Part shown: positions 1,513 to 18,402 of the stretch, piece by piece
Numbering within the stretch: the stretch's first letter is position 1
Layout: every line of letters starts with the position of its first letter
Origin: Verrucomicrobiales bacterium
Lineage (GTDB): Bacteria > Verrucomicrobiota > Verrucomicrobiia > Verrucomicrobiales > DEV007
Direction of reading: 5' to 3'
NCBI GenBank assembly: GCA_029212615.1
Contig: JARGPJ010000005.1
Coordinates: forward strand, 124,001-188,000
Length of the DNA stretch: 64,000 bases
The notes under the pieces: model-generated
Database searches by the model: none
Seen by the model: only the letters and a program-made list of their open reading frames with translations
What the model was told of the DNA's origin: nothing
Position numbers and translations under genes: made by a program

Positions 1513-4305
1513 ATGGGCGATAATGCTGTGATCAAAATTCAGGGAGCTCGACAGCATAACCTGAAAAACCTGAATTTGGAAATCCCGAGAAACCGCTTCG
1601 TCGTTATCACCGGCGTTTCCGGGTCAGGAAAATCCTCGCTCGCCTTCGACACGCTCTACGCCGAAGGGCAGCGGCGCTACGTCGAATCGCTCTCTGCCTA
1701 CGCCCGTCAATTCCTCGATCAGCTCGAGAAACCGGAGGTTGATTTCATCGAAGGACTCACTCCCGCCATCGCCATCGAGCAACGAAGCTCGCAACCGAAC
1801 CCCCGCTCAACGATCGCGACGGCAACGGAGATATACGATTATCTGCGGATTCTCTACGCAGCCCTCGGCCAGCCCCACGACCCCGAAACCGGCGCGCCCC
1901 TCGTTCGCCACACCGTCAAAGACATCGTCGATACGCTCACAGCCCATGCGGAACGGACAAAAATCATCCTCCTCGCACCGATCAAGGTGGAGAAGGGCGA
2001 AACCCTCAAAGACGTTCTCGAACGCTATCGGGCTCAGGGCTTTCTCCGTGCCCGCCTCAATGGGGAAATCATCGAAATCGAGGAAGCCGGGGAGAAACCG
2101 AAAGCAAAGAAGGCCGAGATCGTGATCGACCGGCTCGTCATTCGTGAGGACATCCGGAGTCGACTCGCCGACTCACTCGAAATCGCCCAGAAACTTTCTG
2201 AGAATCACGTCTCCGCTCTCGTCCAGACACCCGGGAGCGAGAACTGGGAGCCACACGATTTCACCTTCAACTTCACCAATCCGGAGACCGGGTTCAGCCT
2301 CCCGAAACTGACGCCGAAGCATTTTTCCTTCAACAGCCATCTCGGAGCGTGCCCCACCTGCCACGGCCTCGGAACCCGACTCGTTCCCGACGGGGAACTC
2401 ATGGTTCCAAATCCCGGAAAAAGCATTCGCGAAGGCGGGATCAAAACCTGGTGGACCGGATCAAAAACCCGCAAAGGATACCATCAGCGAGCCATTGAAG
2501 GGCTCGCCAAGACCTATGATGCCGATCTCGACCTGCCGATCAAAGACTTGCCTCACGAGTTTAAAAAGGCGCTCCTCTACGGAAACGACGACTTCGAAGG
2601 GCTGGCGACGCAGGCGGTCCGCCTCCTCGAAACGAGCAAAAGCGAAGTGACCAAGCGGAATGTTCGTCGCTTCATGAGTTCAAAGCCCTGTCCTACCTGC
2701 GAAGGGAAGCGGCTCAAGGACGGGATCCTTTCGATCACCCTGAATCATCATCTCACCCCACTCTCGATCGAAGGCCTCACCTCCCTCAGCATCGGCCGCG
2801 CCCTGGACTGGATCGATGACGTCATCCTCACGGAAACGCAGGCAACCTATGCCACCGAAGTGCTCAGCGAAGTCCGGAAGCGCCTTTCCTTTCTCAATAC
2901 CGTCGGCCTCGGCTACCTTTCTCTCGACCGTCAAAGCGGCACTCTTTCCGGCGGCGAAAGTCAGCGGATCCGTCTCGCGACCCAACTCGGCGCCGGGCTC
3001 GCCGGGGTTCTCTATGTGCTCGATGAACCCAGCATCGGCCTCCATCAGGCCGACAACGAGAAACTCATCGAAACCCTGAAGAATCTGCGCGACGTCGGAA
3101 ACACTGTTATCGTGGTCGAGCACGACGAAGACACGATCCGCGCCGCCGACTACCTTCTCGACCTCGGCCCTGAGGCAGGGGAGAATGGCGGACGCCTCCT
3201 CGCGATGGGGACGCCGGAGGAAGTCATCGCCCACCCCGACTCCATCACCGGGGCCTACCTCTCCGGACGAAACGCCATCGAGCCGCAGCCCCCCGCCCTC
3301 TTCGATGCCGACCCGCGCGAGCTCGTGGTCCGCGGCGCACGGGAACACAATCTCAAGAACATCGACGTGAGTTTTCCGATCGGACAGTTCGTCTGCGTTA
3401 CCGGTCTCTCCGGAAGTGGGAAATCGACGCTCGTGGACGACATCCTCCGGCGCGCACTTTTCCGCCATTTTCACCAAAGTAAAGAAAAGCCGGGCGAGCA
3501 CGACTCCATCGAAGGAATCGAACACGTCGACAAGGTCATCGTCATCGATCAGGCCCCGATCGGACGGAGCCCGCGTTCAAACCCCGCAACCTACATCGGA
3601 GTCTTCGGGCCGATTCGTGATCTCTTCTCTCAGCTTCCCGCCTCGCGTGCCCGTGGATACGAACCGGGACGCTTCAGCTTTAATGTCACGGGAGGACGGT
3701 GCGAAGCCTGCCAGGGGGACGGCATGATCAAAATCGACATGCACTTCCTCAGCGATGTCTACGTCTCCTGCGAATCCTGCAACGGCCGCCGCTACAATCG
3801 CGAAACTCTCGATGTCACCTACCGGGGAAAGAGCATCGCCGATGTCCTCGAAATGACCGTCGATGAGGCCGTGACATTCTTTCAGAAAATCCCCAAAATC
3901 AGCCAGCAGCTCAAAGCCCTGCGCGACGTCGGGCTCGGCTATGTCCGGCTCGGCCAATCCGCGACAACCCTCTCCGGAGGAGAAGCTCAACGCATCAAAC
4001 TCGCCGCCGAGCTCGGGAAAACCGCAACTGGAAACACCGTCTACCTTCTCGACGAACCCACGACCGGCCTGCACTTCGCCGACATCGCGACGCTCCTCGA
4101 AGTCTTCTACCGGCTCCGCGACCAGGGCAACACGCTTATCGTCATCGAACACAATCTCGATGTCATCAAATGTGCCGACTGGATCATCGACATGGGCCCG
4201 GGCGGCGGTGAGGAAGGCGGCGAAGTCATCGCCACCGGCACCCCCGACGCGATCGCCTCCACGAAAAATTCCCTCACGGGCCACTATTTGAAGCGCTCCC
4301 GGTAA
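1513..4305 (+). CDS. uvrA: Excinuclease ABC subunit A
   Basis: UvrA is the DNA-damage-recognition ATPase of nucleotide excision repair, acting as a dimer with UvrB. The 930-residue protein has both ABC modules: Walker [10 protein letters not shown] (about 34-42) with signature [12 protein letters not shown], and Walker [10 protein letters not shown] with [12 protein letters not shown] and [11 protein letters not shown]. The C-terminal zinc module is intact (CEACQGDG, then CESCNGRR). In the first insertion domain one CPTC (about 279) precedes GLG, and CPTCEGKR lies near 394. The CPxC pair that usually precedes FSFN is replaced by [21 protein letters not shown]. The start chosen is ATG 1513; GTG 1528 ([11 protein letters not shown]) is an alternative. 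Confidence 0.97.
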
Positions 4306-12072: not shown

Positions 12073-12237
12073 AGCACTGTCAGAAAATCAACCCCGCAGA
12101 ATGGAAAAGTTGCAGGGTTCTTTAAGGCCCGTGAGAAACTGAGGGCGAAAACTCAGGTGCCTTTCTTCCGACACTCTCAAAACCATCCAATGGACTCTGC
12201 ACCCCCAGCCCGTTCGTCCCAATGCACAGAATGCACA

Positions 12238-12637
12238 GGGACAGGTTATCTATCGCGGTTATCTATCGAGCCCTCACGCTTCTCATGATGTGACTCTATT
12301 CCATATTGTTTCAAAGCAGCGAACATCGACTCGGCCCCGACGAACAAAGCAATCTTCCTCCTGCCTGAGAGCGATACTCTCTCAATAGGGCAGCCCTCAG
12401 CCACCTCAGTCGCACCGGAACAGACGCCCGGGCACAGGTATCCCCGGAAGTGCTCTCTCTATCCTCTTCTCAACCGATCCGGTCCACCGTAAGATCGCGC
12501 ATGACATGAAGTCCCTCCCAGGCGGGGCCTTTCATCCTCCTCGCTCCGGTCTTTCGCTTCAGTCCGTGTTTTTCCCTTTGATGCGCGAAGATTCGATTCA
12601 CAAAGTCAGCGCTGCCAAACAATAAATAACCTGTCCC
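12238..12637. mobile_element. 400-bp element with GGGACAGGTTAT inverted ends and RAYT relic
   Basis: The ends are GGGACAGGTTAT (12238-12249) and ATAACCTGTCCC (12626-12637), a perfect 12-bp inverted pair identical to the ends of three hairpin repeats at 14.9, 15.1 and 18.0 kb. Inside, the minus strand carries the C-terminal end of a REP-associated tyrosine transposase. Near the left end are short imperfect tandem duplications (AATGCACAG twice; GGTTATCTATCG twice). The rest of 12250-12469 shows no gene I can recognise. Confidence 0.6.
12470..12628 (-). pseudogene. RAYT (TnpREP) transposase C-terminal remnant
   Basis: The minus strand encodes about 50 residues ending in a stop: FGSADFVNRIFAHQREKHG, then KRKTGARRMKGPAWEGLHVMRDL. 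This matches the conserved tail of REP-associated tyrosine transposases (GSxxFV...KRKTGAR...LRDLR). The catalytic HUH and Tyr region is absent. The reading frame runs directly out of the right-hand inverted end of the element. RAYTs are single-copy Y1 transposases that pair with palindromic REP sequences, which fits the hairpin repeats nearby. It is not in the ORF track. Confidence 0.65.
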
Positions 12638-12690
12638 TTCTTCGGAAGTGCCCCCTGGGACGTTGCAAGCGGCGGGCTGGCGATTCGCGG

Positions 12691-12996
12691 GTTCTGGAGG
12701 GTTATTTGGGCATGCTCAATCATTTTACCCGCCCGTATGCCATCCCGTATCGAATTATGATTCCGCTGCATGTCGACGGATTAATCGTTCCGGTTGCGGC
12801 TTCGACAACTCATGTGGCGTATTCGTCGATTCGGATGGAACCAACCTGGATGGCGCCGGGGCAGGTCGCCGGTGCGGTCGCCGCTCTTTCCATAGAGTAT
12901 AGCGGTGCACTTCGCTCCATTCCGATCCCCGTTTTGCAGAAAAACATGAAAGAGGCCGGGCAGATTCTTGAACCCGCGCTGGAGGCCTGTTACTAA
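12691..12996 (+). pseudogene. C-terminal fragment of an FAD-dependent oxidoreductase
   Basis: About 100 codons read LEGYLGMLNHFTRPYAIPYR, LIVPVAASTTHVAYSSIRMEP and GQVAGAVAAL. This is the C-terminal end of the PF12831-type (xanthan-lyase-associated) FAD oxidoreductase family, where PYxIxYR and SxxHxAxxxIRMEP are conserved. The N-terminal FAD-binding GxGxxG region and most of the protein are missing. The fragment begins about 50 bp after the RAYT element, so insertion or deletion at that element probably removed the rest. It stops 13 bp before the GH43-type gene, suggesting a former operon. Confidence 0.7.
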
Positions 12997-13009
12997 GTCC
13001 CGTCTGAAG

Positions 13010-14848
13010 ATGGTTGATATGGAAGATTTAAAATTTCGAAATTTCACTGAATGCATTTGCATTGGTAGAAGCCGGTTGATTGCCGCGATACTCATAATGC
13101 TTCTATCTGCAGGGGGCAGTATTTGGGGGGAGAACCCGTCTGTTCAGGAGGGCACCTCTGCCTATGGGGAAATCGATGTAAAAGATCCCCGGATTCAGAT
13201 TCCGCCTTCTGTTTATCCCTTGCTGGATATCTATATGAGAGATACGCAGGTTACCCGAGGTCGGGATGGCTGGTTTTTCATGACGGGGTCGGTCGCTGCG
13301 GATGGCCAGCCCGATGCATCGCTTTGGAAGTGGAATGATGGACTCCGGGTCTGGAGATCCCGCGATTTAAAAAAGTGGGAGCCGCTGGGGCTGGTGTGGC
13401 CGCTGGATGACTGGGACGGGTGGCAGAAAGACTTCTATGTGTATCCACCGGGAGAGGCCAGTTATACCTTGGCTCCAGATGAGTTCCACCAGGCGGAATT
13501 GCCCTCTGGAACCGAGGTGCGGCGGTCGGTCTGGGCGCCTGAGATTCATTACCTCCCTCTCCAGGATAATTATTTCCTGGTCGCATGCATGAACCACAAC
13601 ATGCTCCTTCGAGGACACGAGGTTGTTGGGCACGGACTCAAGGGCGCGACCTTTGTGCTCCGGAGCACGACCGGCGAGCCGGAGGGCCCCTATGAAGACA
13701 TCTCCCCCGGAGCGCCATTGACGGCGCAGATCGATGCGAATCTTTTTGAGGATGATGACGGCAAAATCTATCTGGTCTACCAGAATGGTAAAATTGCCAA
13801 GCTCAAAGATGATCTGACCGGACTGGCCGAAGAGCCGCGGCTGTTGACTCAACAGCCCTATCCGCAGGAGCCGTATATCGAAGGAACCTTTTTATTCAAG
13901 CGCGATGGGAAATATATCCTGTCGAACACAATCTGGTCGACTCCCGATCCCGACCAGCCCGGGATGTTCCATTACGCGCGTCAAAAGAAGGGCGTCTACA
14001 GTTATGATGTCGTGATTGCTTCGTCCGATTCAATCTATGGTCCATACGGGAGGCGGACAACCTCGTTGATTGGCGGTGGGCACGGAAACTTTTTTGAGGA
14101 TTTTGAGGGACAGTGGTGGGCCTGTATTTTTTGGAACCCTCGCGGTCAGTTCGCTCATACATGGGGCCATACCTGTCGGCCGGCTGTCGTTCCGATGACG
14201 TGGAAGGGAGAGCAGATGTTCCCGGATTTTAATGCGGCGGCAGAGTTATACGATGACAGAAAAGGCCCGGACCATTCGGTGTCGGTTATCGGACATCCGG
14301 CAGATCAAGAGATTGGAGAAGATGGCAGTCTCAGGAATTCGCAGTATTTCGGAGTTGGCGACTTCAAGGCTATCGACCTCTGCGGGGCTCTCTTATTTGA
14401 ATTGCCTGTTCTTCCTGAAGGCGAGGTCGTTACCAATGCCCATCTTTCATTCTATACTCGAGTTGTGGGGGACCCGGATTTTGACGTCGATTTGTATGGC
14501 ATCGGTTTTGCTCCCGAAGCGGTCGTCGACAGCTCCAACTACTATGCGGGTGACTTTTTGGACGACGAAAAAGGGCATGGCGGCTTGCAGGATGGTGTTT
14601 TGACCTCGTCGGATGGCGAAGGCGTTCATACCTCCGGTGACGTTTCGGCATGGTTGCAGAGTTATTACACTGCAAACCCGGGTTATTCCGGAGGAACCTA
14701 TGCGGTTTTCCGGTTCAATGCGGATGTTGAGGCGGTTCCGACAAATAGTCGCTATGAAATCGGTCAGGCCAATAATGCAGAGCCAGGACGTCGGCCGAGT
14801 TTGGTTCTTAAGAAGGGGCTTCCCGGGGCCGGGAGACCCGCGCGATGA
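13010..14848 (+). CDS. Secreted GH43-type glycoside hydrolase with C-terminal module
   Basis: This 612-residue protein, from ATG 13010 (13019 is possible), has a membrane or signal segment (LIAAILIMLLSAGGSIWG). It is followed by a five-bladed propeller pattern: RDTQVTRGRDGWFFMTGS, VWAPEIHYL, IDANLFEDDDGKIYLVYQNG and YIEGTFLFKRDGKYIL. The Asp and Glu in these blades fit the GH43/GH117 clan catalytic set. From about residue 450 a separate beta-rich domain (AHLSFYTRVVGDPDFDVDLYG) resembles a DNRLRE/PEP-associated-type sandwich. Base composition and codon use look less GC-rich than flanking core genes. It likely cleaves algal or plant polysaccharide outside the cell. The substrate is unknown. Confidence 0.75.
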   Translation: MVDMEDLKFRNFTECICIGRSRLIAAILIMLLSAGGSIWGENPSVQEGTSAYGEIDVKDPRIQIPPSVYPLLDIYMRDTQVTRGRDGWFFMTGSVAADGQPDASLWKWNDGLRVWRSRDLKKWEPLGLVWPLDDWDGWQKDFYVYPPGEASYTLAPDEFHQAELPSGTEVRRSVWAPEIHYLPLQDNYFLVACMNHNMLLRGHEVVGHGLKGATFVLRSTTGEPEGPYEDISPGAPLTAQIDANLFEDDDGKIYLVYQNGKIAKLKDDLTGLAEEPRLLTQQPYPQEPYIEGTFLFKRDGKYILSNTIWSTPDPDQPGMFHYARQKKGVYSYDVVIASSDSIYGPYGRRTTSLIGGGHGNFFEDFEGQWWACIFWNPRGQFAHTWGHTCRPAVVPMTWKGEQMFPDFNAAAELYDDRKGPDHSVSVIGHPADQEIGEDGSLRNSQYFGVGDFKAIDLCGALLFELPVLPEGEVVTNAHLSFYTRVVGDPDFDVDLYGIGFAPEAVVDSSNYYAGDFLDDEKGHGGLQDGVLTSSDGEGVHTSGDVSAWLQSYYTANPGYSGGTYAVFRFNADVEAVPTNSRYEIGQANNAEPGRRPSLVLKKGLPGAGRPAR

Positions 14849-14908
14849 GCGAGTGGTCTATCGCAAGTTGACCCGTTCCCGATCCGCAAGGCCGGGAGCG
14901 AATCTACA

Positions 14909-14996
14909 GGGACAGGTTATTAGTCGCGATTAGTCGCGTTCTTTGCTGCGATCCGTCCATCGATAGCGGGAACGCGGTCAACAGATAACCTGTCCC
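14909..14996. repeat. REP-like hairpin repeat, copy A
   Basis: It has perfect 12-bp ends GGGACAGGTTAT and ATAACCTGTCCC, and an inner inverted pair CGCGTTC/GAACGCG, so it can fold into a long hairpin. Compared with copies B and C it carries an extra tandem ATTAGTCGCG (10 bp). Confidence 0.85.
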
Positions 14997-15026
14997 TTGG
15001 GGACTACGATTCGAAAGGGCGGGAGC

Positions 15027-15056
15027 GAATCTACAGGGACAAATCTACAGGGACAG
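15027..15056. repeat. 14-bp tandem duplication at the edge of copy B
   Basis: AATCTACAGGGACA occurs twice head to tail just before and overlapping the left end of copy B. Copies A and C have it once. Confidence 0.85.
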
Positions 15057-15127
15057 GTTATTAGTCGCGTTCTTTGCTGCGATCCGTCCATCGATAGCGG
15101 GAACGCGGTCAGCAGATAACCTGTCCC
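15050..15127. repeat. REP-like hairpin repeat, copy B
   Basis: This 78-bp unit is nearly identical to copy C and to copy A without its 10-bp insert. It has the same 12-bp inverted ends and the same CGCGTTC/GAACGCG inner pair. Confidence 0.85.
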
Positions 15128-15361
15128 TTGGGGAAACTTAGTTCACAGGACTGCTAGAGTTACGCTCCTGAAGACTAACACGGCACCATTTTTCTCTTTT
15201 TAAACTCGGTGAGGCATTGCTATGCCCAAATCGCTGCTCTGAAAAAAGATGATATCTCCCCTTGATCTCATCTGATGCTTCTGACCCTCTGCCACCACAA
15301 GCGGGATTTGAGCAAATCATCTCGACAATCATAAAGTAATATTGCAAATATCCACGCAATA

Positions 15362-18032
15362 ATGAAAGCGCGAGATTTAACGGAAAGATTAGGTGGGAAG
15401 AAACAGAAGTCGGTTTTGGATCTAGCGAGATTAATTGATAACGGCAACGAAAACATGCCAAATTTCTCACTTCTTATTGGAGCTGGGGCTTCTCGACCAA
15501 GTGGTATTCGAACTGCAGCAGAAATGATCGAGAAGTGGCGTTGGGAAATCTTCTGCGAAATAGAAAATGCGCCGACGCTTTCGCGGGATGAGCCCGACGA
15601 AATTAGGAAGTGGCTAACAGAGAACGAAAAAAGTTGGTATCAACCAGATTCAGAATACTCAAGTTTGATAGAGAAAATATACCCGGTTCAACGATCGCGC
15701 CGGCTGTTCATCGAGTCGGAGGTTGAAGGAAAGCTGCCTTCAATCGGATATTCATATCTCGTCCGACTCGCAGAAAACAATAAAATTAACAGCATATTTA
15801 CTACCAATTTCGATGACTTATTAAATGAAGCATTTTATCAGTTTTCGACTGAACGACCAATCGTGTGCGCACACGACTCGTCAGTTAACAGCATAACAGT
15901 GACCTCAAGTAGAGCAAAAATAATAAAGCTCCATGGCGATTACCTATTTGACGACCTTAAAAACACGTCGAAGGAAACACAGAATTTAGCAGAGAATATG
16001 AAGCTAAAATTCAGGGAGTTTTTAAAAGAGTATGGACTAATCGTCTCTGGTTACTCAGGCGGAGATCAATCGGTTCTTTCTCAGCTCGATGAAATGATCG
16101 ACACTCCAAATTTTTTACAAAATGGTCTCTACTGGGTCTTTCGCGAAGATGATAACGTAAGCTCAAATGTGCTCCAGCTGCTTGAAAAAGATGGATCATT
16201 TTTCGTTCTGTCAGAGGGGTTTGACGAACTTTTTGCAGGACTATACGAGAAATTGGTAAACAAATCGGCGCCATTCACTTCTCGAGTCGCTAGCGACAGG
16301 GCAGGAGAGGTAATTGAGAGCTACCTCACAAATCCAATCCTCACAAATTCAGGTTCAAAAACTATTTCGAGACATTTGGAAGAACTCCGTGCCGATCGAA
16401 ACAGCTTCCTTGTGACAGATGCGATAAATGAGCTTTCATCCGAGAATGAGGAAGATGTGAGATTAAAAGATGGGGAGGTCCTTGTTTTCCTTGAGGTCGA
16501 AAAATTAATTCGGGCGAGGAGCATGCAATCCGCTTTCGATTCAATACAAAATCGAGTCGAGAATTGCGAAGGAAAGATATTGAAAAAGCTGCTTCTGCGT
16601 AAGGCGTTTGAATGTGCTGTAAGCCTAAATAGAAGAAAAGAAGCACTCTCGTTTGCCGATCAAAGCATCGAACTCGACCCCGAAAACTATTTTATCCATC
16701 TTCGGAAAATCCAGGTGGTAGAGAATCGGGATGAGCGTCTATCAATTCTCGAAAGCGTCATGGCCCGGTCTCCATTCGACGAGGTAGTAGTCAACCGATA
16801 TGCCAAAGAATTGTGGGCGAAATTCAAGGGGCCGAATGAAACCGGCGACCCAGTAAAATTAGAAGATGTCGAAGATGCTTTTCGGAAATCGATAAATCTC
16901 AATCCAAGTATAGAGAACTACGCATACAGACAATTGTTCGATTTTCTTTTAGAGAATCAAGACCAGATCGACAACTACAAGGAGAAACTAATAGAAGTTT
17001 TAGACGCTCACCTAGTCCAAGACGCCTTCAATTCAAGCACAACCTCTCTAATGTTTGACTATGGGAAGAATGAGCAGAAAACCGAATTCCGTGGTAAAGA
17101 AATCATCGACTACGTAGTGGACGGATTCAAAATGCACTACCCGAAGAATTACACCTCCCATCTTTCAAATCTAAAAGAGGCTTGTACATTATTCTCGAAC
17201 TTTAGCCAGTTCCGTAGTGCGCTTTCTATTTGTGAAGGAATCGAAGAGCTAAAGCATGATGACCTATATGTTTACCTCAAGATGACAATTCTCTACGACA
17301 ATTCTCTACGACAATTGCCGCGATATTTATGCCGCTATTGAATTGGGTGAACGGTATATCAAAGGCCGAAAATCGGTAAGGGTTGAGAAGTATCTTGTAA
17401 ACTTGCTTTGTCGAGCTGGAAGCATTGAGAAAGCTAGGACTAGATTAGAAGCGCTAAAGGGAGGGTTAAGTCTTCGGCAATACTTCGAGCTAAAATCCGA
17501 AATACTTGAGTTTGAAGGGCGTTTTGCTGATGCTATCGATGCCATCTATTCGATTCCGGATCGGCTTGAATTTACTGAAGACTACACAACGCATCTTACG
17601 TATTTGTATATGAAATCGGAGCAGTTTGAGAAAGCTTTTGAAATTTCGAGTTCATTCCTGAAAGATAGAAATTATAACCCTAATTATCGGGCTGATATAA
17701 TCAATCGGGAGTTCTCTAAGAAAAAGCTTGGTCGAAATCCTAAGGTTCAAAACTTAAATAGAATAGTCGAAAATTCAGCATCTGATCCAGACTGCCGTGC
17801 GGGGGCACTACTTGTTTTAGGTGAGCATGACCAGGCTTATGAAATTTTCAGATCTGAATCAGATAATGATTTCTCAAAGCTGGAAGGTTATTTAAGATGG
17901 CCGATAGCGCAGGTAATTTCCGACAAACTCGCGGCTCTACGCGATTCTTTGACTTCATCTAAGCGAACGTTGGATGAACTGGTATCAATTGAAAGCGGCT
18001 CGAAAATTTCGGGGTCAGGCGACATTTCCTGA
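15362..18032 (+). pseudogene. SIR2-domain protein with helical-repeat C-terminus, frameshifted by 13-bp duplication
   Basis: The track splits this into 659- and 229-residue ORFs. The first has a SIR2-like NAD-binding domain: GAGASRPSG (40-48), TTNFDDLLNEAF (catalytic-type Asn149), KLHGD (His191) and SGYSGGD. From about residue 300 it is helical with TPR-like stretches (KEALSFADQSIELDPEN). At 17284-17316 GACAATTCTCTAC is tandemly duplicated; removing one 13-bp copy fuses the ORFs into one 885-residue frame (ILYDNCRDIYAAIELGERY). SIR2-like proteins of this build are often NAD-depleting anti-phage effectors. Low GC and flanking hairpin repeats suggest transfer. It is inactive as read, but slippage could restore it. 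Confidence 0.8.
17284..17316 (+). repeat. 13-bp tandem repeat causing the SIR2 frameshift
   Basis: GACAATTCTCTAC occurs twice in full, followed by GACAATT as a partial third copy. Frame arithmetic shows that deleting exactly one unit restores the reading frame between the two track ORFs. Confidence 0.92.
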
Positions 18033-18039
18033 ATCTACA

Positions 18040-18117
18040 GGGACAGGTTATTAGTCGCGTTCTTTGCTGCGATCCGTCCATCGATAGCGGGAACGCGTTC
18101 AACAGATAACCTGTCCC
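18040..18117. repeat. REP-like hairpin repeat, copy C
   Basis: This 78-bp unit has GGGACAGGTTAT/ATAACCTGTCCC ends and differs from copy B at only two visible positions. Its flank GAATCTACAG overlaps the SIR2 stop codon, so insertion may have set the present end of that gene. Confidence 0.85.
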
Positions 18118-18146
18118 TTGAGGAAACTCTGTCCCTTGGGGAAACT
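18111..18146. repeat. 18-bp tandem duplication beside copy C
   Basis: CTGTCCCTTGAGGAAACT is followed directly by CTGTCCCTTGGGGAAACT, with one mismatch. It duplicates the right end of the hairpin repeat together with its flank. Confidence 0.85.
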
Positions 18147-18402
18147 CGCACGGCCCCCAAGGGCATGAGCACTCGCATAACGAAGAGTAGCGAATTCGTC
18201 CGAGTGTTCGGGGTGAGCCCGGCTGATTCTTTCGGTGTGGCCGGCTTGCCCGGTTAAAAGGTAGAGGATGTATTCCGCAAAATTCCGGGGCCGAGTTCAT
18301 TCGCGCCTGTCGAGCGGGCGAGCTGACCCTGTTGCGTTGGTGAAGTGACACAAGAATCACAAGGGACAGGTCCCGAAAAGTTATTAGCTTCCGAAAATCA
18401 AA

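Follow-up and report, generated by a model that had tools for sequence, protein, structure and literature searches.

A SIR2-domain gene in the stretch of Verrucomicrobiales DNA analysed here (64,000 nucleotides, hereafter the window) has probably been disabled by a recent 13-bp duplication, which replication slippage between two copies of GACAATT most likely produced and which would have led to loss of function. The first-pass annotation of this stretch had singled out the duplication, and its observation is correct. The lesion is ordinary in kind, and its origin in slippage is probable.

An extra 13-bp unit splits the gene over two reading frames

The frame-breaking duplication, 2.54 copies of GACAATTCTCTAC, lies at positions 17284..17316 of the plus strand, where Tandem Repeats Finder reports a period of 13, 2.5 copies and a match of 100%. 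Two full units (17284-17296 and 17297-17309) are followed by a partial third copy, GACAATT, at 17310-17316. An exact tandem duplication with a partial third copy had been claimed for this site, and it is borne out at a level far above chance: when the 381-kb contig was shuffled ten times under a third-order Markov model, no exact tandem repeat of a 13-bp unit appeared. In the 4.55-Mb assembly, the 20-mer GACAATTCTCTACGACAATT, which comprises one unit and seven further bases, occurs at only two overlapping sites, both of them in this tract.

On either side of the repeat the gene is read in different frames of the plus strand. ORF1 (15362..17341, 659 amino acids) encodes a complete SIR2 domain and the first part of a helical solenoid, and ends with an out-of-frame tail of about 12 residues and a stop codon at 17339-17341, seven codons past the repeat. 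The 3' remainder of the gene (17286..18032, with homology from about 17301) follows in a shifted frame, encodes the rest of the TPR-like solenoid in 248 codons without an internal stop, and carries the family's C-terminal RWP motif; its last residues and stop codon occupy 18005..18032, and similar DNA flanks different cargo in the congener G007. The C-terminal solenoid, up to a conserved WP motif, is thereby split in the window over two frames rather than contained in one. The offset between the two frames equals the surplus of one 13-bp unit. Positions 15362 to 18032 span 2671 bases, which less 13 make 886 codons including the stop, and this arithmetic confirms the continuous protein of 885 residues that had been proposed to result from removal of one unit. 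Attribution of the frame break to a single extra unit held equally well, as the two frames align consecutively to a single-frame homolog. Judged by its sequence, the gene in the window belongs, in broken form, to a putative SIR2-TPR anti-phage protein family.

Homologs are uninterrupted at the position of the break

Among full-length homologs of complete sequence, the nearest comes from a Verrucomicrobiaceae MAG (L002, on the same contig as L018) and is one open frame of about 870-900 residues; ORF1 aligns to its residues 31-678, the second frame of the window to its residues 670-897. All 28 distinct full-length homologs compared, which come from a Verrucomicrobiota MAG, Bacteroides, Gammaproteobacteria, prophage contigs and a Pantoea plasmid, are single ORFs across the break position; they are distant (43% identity), and the age and polarity of the event in this lineage rest on them. 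Because all 28 are continuous at this point, the frame break is a genuine insertion into a gene that normally has no interruption. Relatives carrying the same two-copy sequence with conserved separate ORFs were looked for and none was found, the full-length relatives compared being single ORFs. Analysis of dN/dS was left aside, since sequences at 43% identity are saturated.

Closer to the source organism, no full-length counterpart of the gene was present in the 32 other genomes of the genus, and a survey of 33 genus, 386 order and 384 class genomes revealed no close relative with the gene apart from G049 and G754. In G754 there is a fragment, whose apparent truncation was rejected as a lesion, as the contig ends there. 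The exact flank sequence had no match in viral contigs. In the Verrucomicrobiaceae MAG, a gene for a BsuBI/PstI-type restriction endonuclease (L018, 3343-3948) immediately precedes the intact SIR2-TPR homolog.

That the split gene might still be functional, either as two polypeptides that assemble or through bypass of the shift by the ribosome or RNA polymerase, strikes us as very improbable. Re-initiation is conceivable in that the stop codon of ORF1 stands one base before the first start codon of the 3' frame, a TTG at 17343, but no SD-like start site was seen before this TTG, and the junction is without a homopolymer, the usual site of frame bypass (PMC3812077). The break moreover falls within a continuous solenoid, at about residues 637-644 of the homolog, rather than at a domain border, and none of the homologs compared is naturally split at that point.

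The gene encodes a predicted SIR2-TPR anti-phage protein

ORF1 contains a SIR2_2 domain (PF13289, E 3.8e-14) at about residues 30-315, in which the motifs GAGAS, FTTNFDD and KLHGD are found and the NAD-site and catalytic motifs are intact, upholding the SIR2-domain assignment made in the first-pass annotation. N147 and H189 are nearly invariant in the family alignment (A4); in DSR2, the catalytic residues N133 and H171 are essential (PMC11290490). In the predicted structure of the intact homolog (mean pLDDT 84), the SIR2 domain is closest to that of SPARSA (Z 25.0, 4.1 A over 295 residues), with ThsA, SIR2/HerA and DSR2 (Z about 15) following in the fold ranking, and is succeeded on its C-terminal side by a TPR-type superhelix spanning approximately residues 365-850.

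The PADLOC models that match the SIR2 part of ORF1 are Aga_SIR2 (Argonaute-associated SIR2) and PDC-S65, and it is these and the SPARSA SIR2 subunit that the SIR2 domain resembles most closely, by sequence and by fold. Unlike SPARSA, the protein has a solenoid and not APAZ after the SIR2 domain, only the SIR2 part matches the SPARSA structures 8in8 and 8jl0, and no Argonaute gene was found among the adjacent genes tested, which comprise a GH43 gene and proteins not assigned to any family. With DSR2 the protein appears to share an N-terminal SIR2 NADase with catalytic Asn/His positions and a long helical C-terminal part; it differs from DSR2 in length (about 885 versus about 1000 residues) and in its putative sensor, a TPR-like superhelix of different sequence, and the DSR2 model was not among the PADLOC matches of ORF1 at E up to 1.

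The gene is best read as encoding a SIR2-TPR protein, a DSR2-like anti-phage NADase. The predicted role in defence follows from the SIR2 fold match together with the TPR superhelix, from the location of some homologs in prophages, and from a Sir2-HerA pair at the corresponding site in G007. In DSR2 the phage trigger is bound by the C-terminal part (PMC11290490); by analogy, an effector without its sensor end should be silent, and the truncated protein would accordingly be expected to be inactive.

The break appears young and is probably a product of slippage

The 3' piece is 34.5% identical to the intact homolog, whereas the part of the solenoid immediately before the break reaches 29%. Of 51 conserved columns, the 3' piece retains 20 and the intact homolog itself 15. 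Because the 3' piece is undecayed and as conserved as the intact homolog, the break appears to be young, which supports recent loss of function, one of two readings put forward in the first-pass annotation, with a presumably inactive truncated protein as its product.

A 3' frame that looks like part of a working gene would also be found if the true genome held a single unit and an intact gene, the second unit being an error of assembly or sequencing, and the assembly is indeed incomplete (93.8%, 21 contigs). We regard such an error as quite improbable, since a clean 13-bp insertion fits a slippage product and is atypical of homopolymer-type errors, and since other exact short duplications occur at plausible places on the same contig.

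Slippage, of which the sequence displays the product, is the most likely cause that we infer for the duplication. GACAATT recurs after 13 bp and so forms a direct repeat of the kind that slippage uses; 7-mers repeated exactly 13 bp apart are common, being found at 51 places in 381 kb. A hairpin at the repeat was rejected as the cause, the DNA fold there being unremarkable (z -0.5). A promoter scan gave nothing above chance.

In the course of events that we propose, a SIR2-TPR anti-phage gene, with an N-terminal NAD-hydrolase domain and a TPR-like solenoid as its presumed phage sensor, would have been acquired horizontally. Replication slippage between the two 7-bp direct copies of GACAATT, 13 bp apart, would then have generated the 13-bp tandem duplication, and the extra 13 bases would have shifted the frame inside the solenoid, such that translation ends seven codons past the repeat and about 225 residues are missing from the C-terminus of the product. 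With phage sensing lost, the truncated protein would be inactive.

The other reading that had been put forward is a reversible slippage switch, in which the 13-bp unit would be gained and lost at an appreciable rate and the population would be ON or OFF for a costly NAD-depleting effector. We consider this unlikely, though not without points in its favour: the repeat is exact, its 20-bp perfect overlap now favours losing a unit, the 3' piece is undecayed, and local instability of the site is conceivable given how many short tandem duplications the surrounding 6 kb contain. As in phase-variable (contingency) genes with simple sequence repeats, one repeat unit alters the frame of a defence-type gene. 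Unlike in contingency genes, the tract has just two full copies (2.54 in all); it lies about 72% into the gene. No repeat equivalent to the tract is present in any of the homologs compared, distant as these are; their coding DNA (113 kb) holds four tandem repeats with a unit of at least 8 bp, all of which have 9- or 12-bp units and keep the frame. A review of phase variation gives as its criteria that the change be at one locus, that it be reversible without selection and that it reach a minimum rate (PMC11868660). Of the three, the sequence bears out only the first: the frame-breaking repeat is confined to a single locus and is unique in the assembly.

Published small rearrangements behave both ways. 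None of the Xenorhabdus lrp mutants, tandem duplications among them, reverted genetically (PMC6786866), while in Staphylococcus agr a duplication-plus-inversion and a poly(A) change did revert (PMC6686034); for a two-copy repeat of 13 bp, the literature searched gave no rate of reversion. One homolog, on a viral contig (L049), is frame-broken at about 4265-4305, near an A8 run, possibly by a homopolymer indel or a sequencing error, and was rejected as support for a switch at the present site since its break sits elsewhere.

The gene appears to occupy an exchangeable defence slot bounded by REP-like hairpins

The GC content of the gene is 42%, versus 54% for the contig. REP-like hairpin repeats of the form GGGACAGGTTAT...ATAACCTGTCCC occur in the window at 12238, 12630, 14909-14996, 15050-15127 and 18040-18117, and the three nearest the gene are each accompanied by a tandem duplication. 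The first upstream copy (14909..14996) has a 10-bp duplication at 14919, the second (15028..15138 with its edge) a 14-bp duplication at 15028-15055, and the downstream copy (18032..18147 with its edge; DNA fold z -6.2) an 18-bp duplication at 18111-18147. The ends of these hairpins match those of Y1_Tnp (RAYT-like) elements at other sites of the genome (L113-L120; eight such genes). Some Y1_Tnp elements likewise show tandem duplications at their edges.

The GH43-type gene adjoining the defence gene (12968..14848, plus strand) belongs to a block that is 97% identical at the nucleotide level in G007, compared with 65-74% for the other DNA compared between the two genomes. Behind this block, G007 carries a Sir2-HerA pair (L109, 11957-15651, minus strand; PADLOC, 4e-164 for SIR2 and 5e-260 for HerA) instead of the SIR2-TPR gene. 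Because of the low GC content, the absence from congeners, the REP-type hairpins and the flank shared with a G007 locus that holds Sir2-HerA, the locus resembles a slot in which defence cargo is exchanged, and the gene seems to have arrived recently. Defence hotspots of P2/P4-type prophages similarly hold exchangeable cargo that includes Sir2+HerA (PMC9122126), and homologs of the gene are found in prophages; unlike those hotspots, the locus here is bounded by REP-like hairpins, and no integrase was recognised next to the gene.

The contig has 18 short near-exact tandem duplications (units of 9-40 bp), and six of them fall within 12221-18147, a block with the order REP-GH43-REP-REP-SIR2-REP. 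Such a cluster was reached in none of 5000 random scatters, a figure that applies to a block picked after seeing the data and to a background sample of one 381-kb contig. Most of the six lie in or at the edges of REP-like hairpins; the 13-bp unit is the only one inside coding sequence and is about 0.7 kb from the nearest REP. A similar excess is seen at RAYT loci, with 4 duplications in 24 kb versus 0.32 per 10 kb. It could be supposed that the REP/RAYT elements bounding the defence slot promote short duplications, by which the cargo is repeatedly broken and re-opened as one unit is gained or lost, so that immune genes would owe an on/off mutability to a mobile element; we view this as very improbable. 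As a side finding, the duplication cluster is more interesting than the 13-bp lesion. Outside the window, at 293018-293037 of contig C7, an exact tandem duplication of 10 bp close to the beginning of a 305-codon ORF may be frame-breaking as well.

Implications

Read as a recent loss of function, the locus would illustrate clearly how cells lose a costly anti-phage effector, namely by one short slippage event in a gene that is otherwise undecayed, and the gene falls in a slot that, in a related bacterium, holds another SIR2-based system. The short duplications clustered around REP-like elements form a separate, testable pattern. If the tract were reversible, it would constitute a two-copy switch of an abortive-infection effector.
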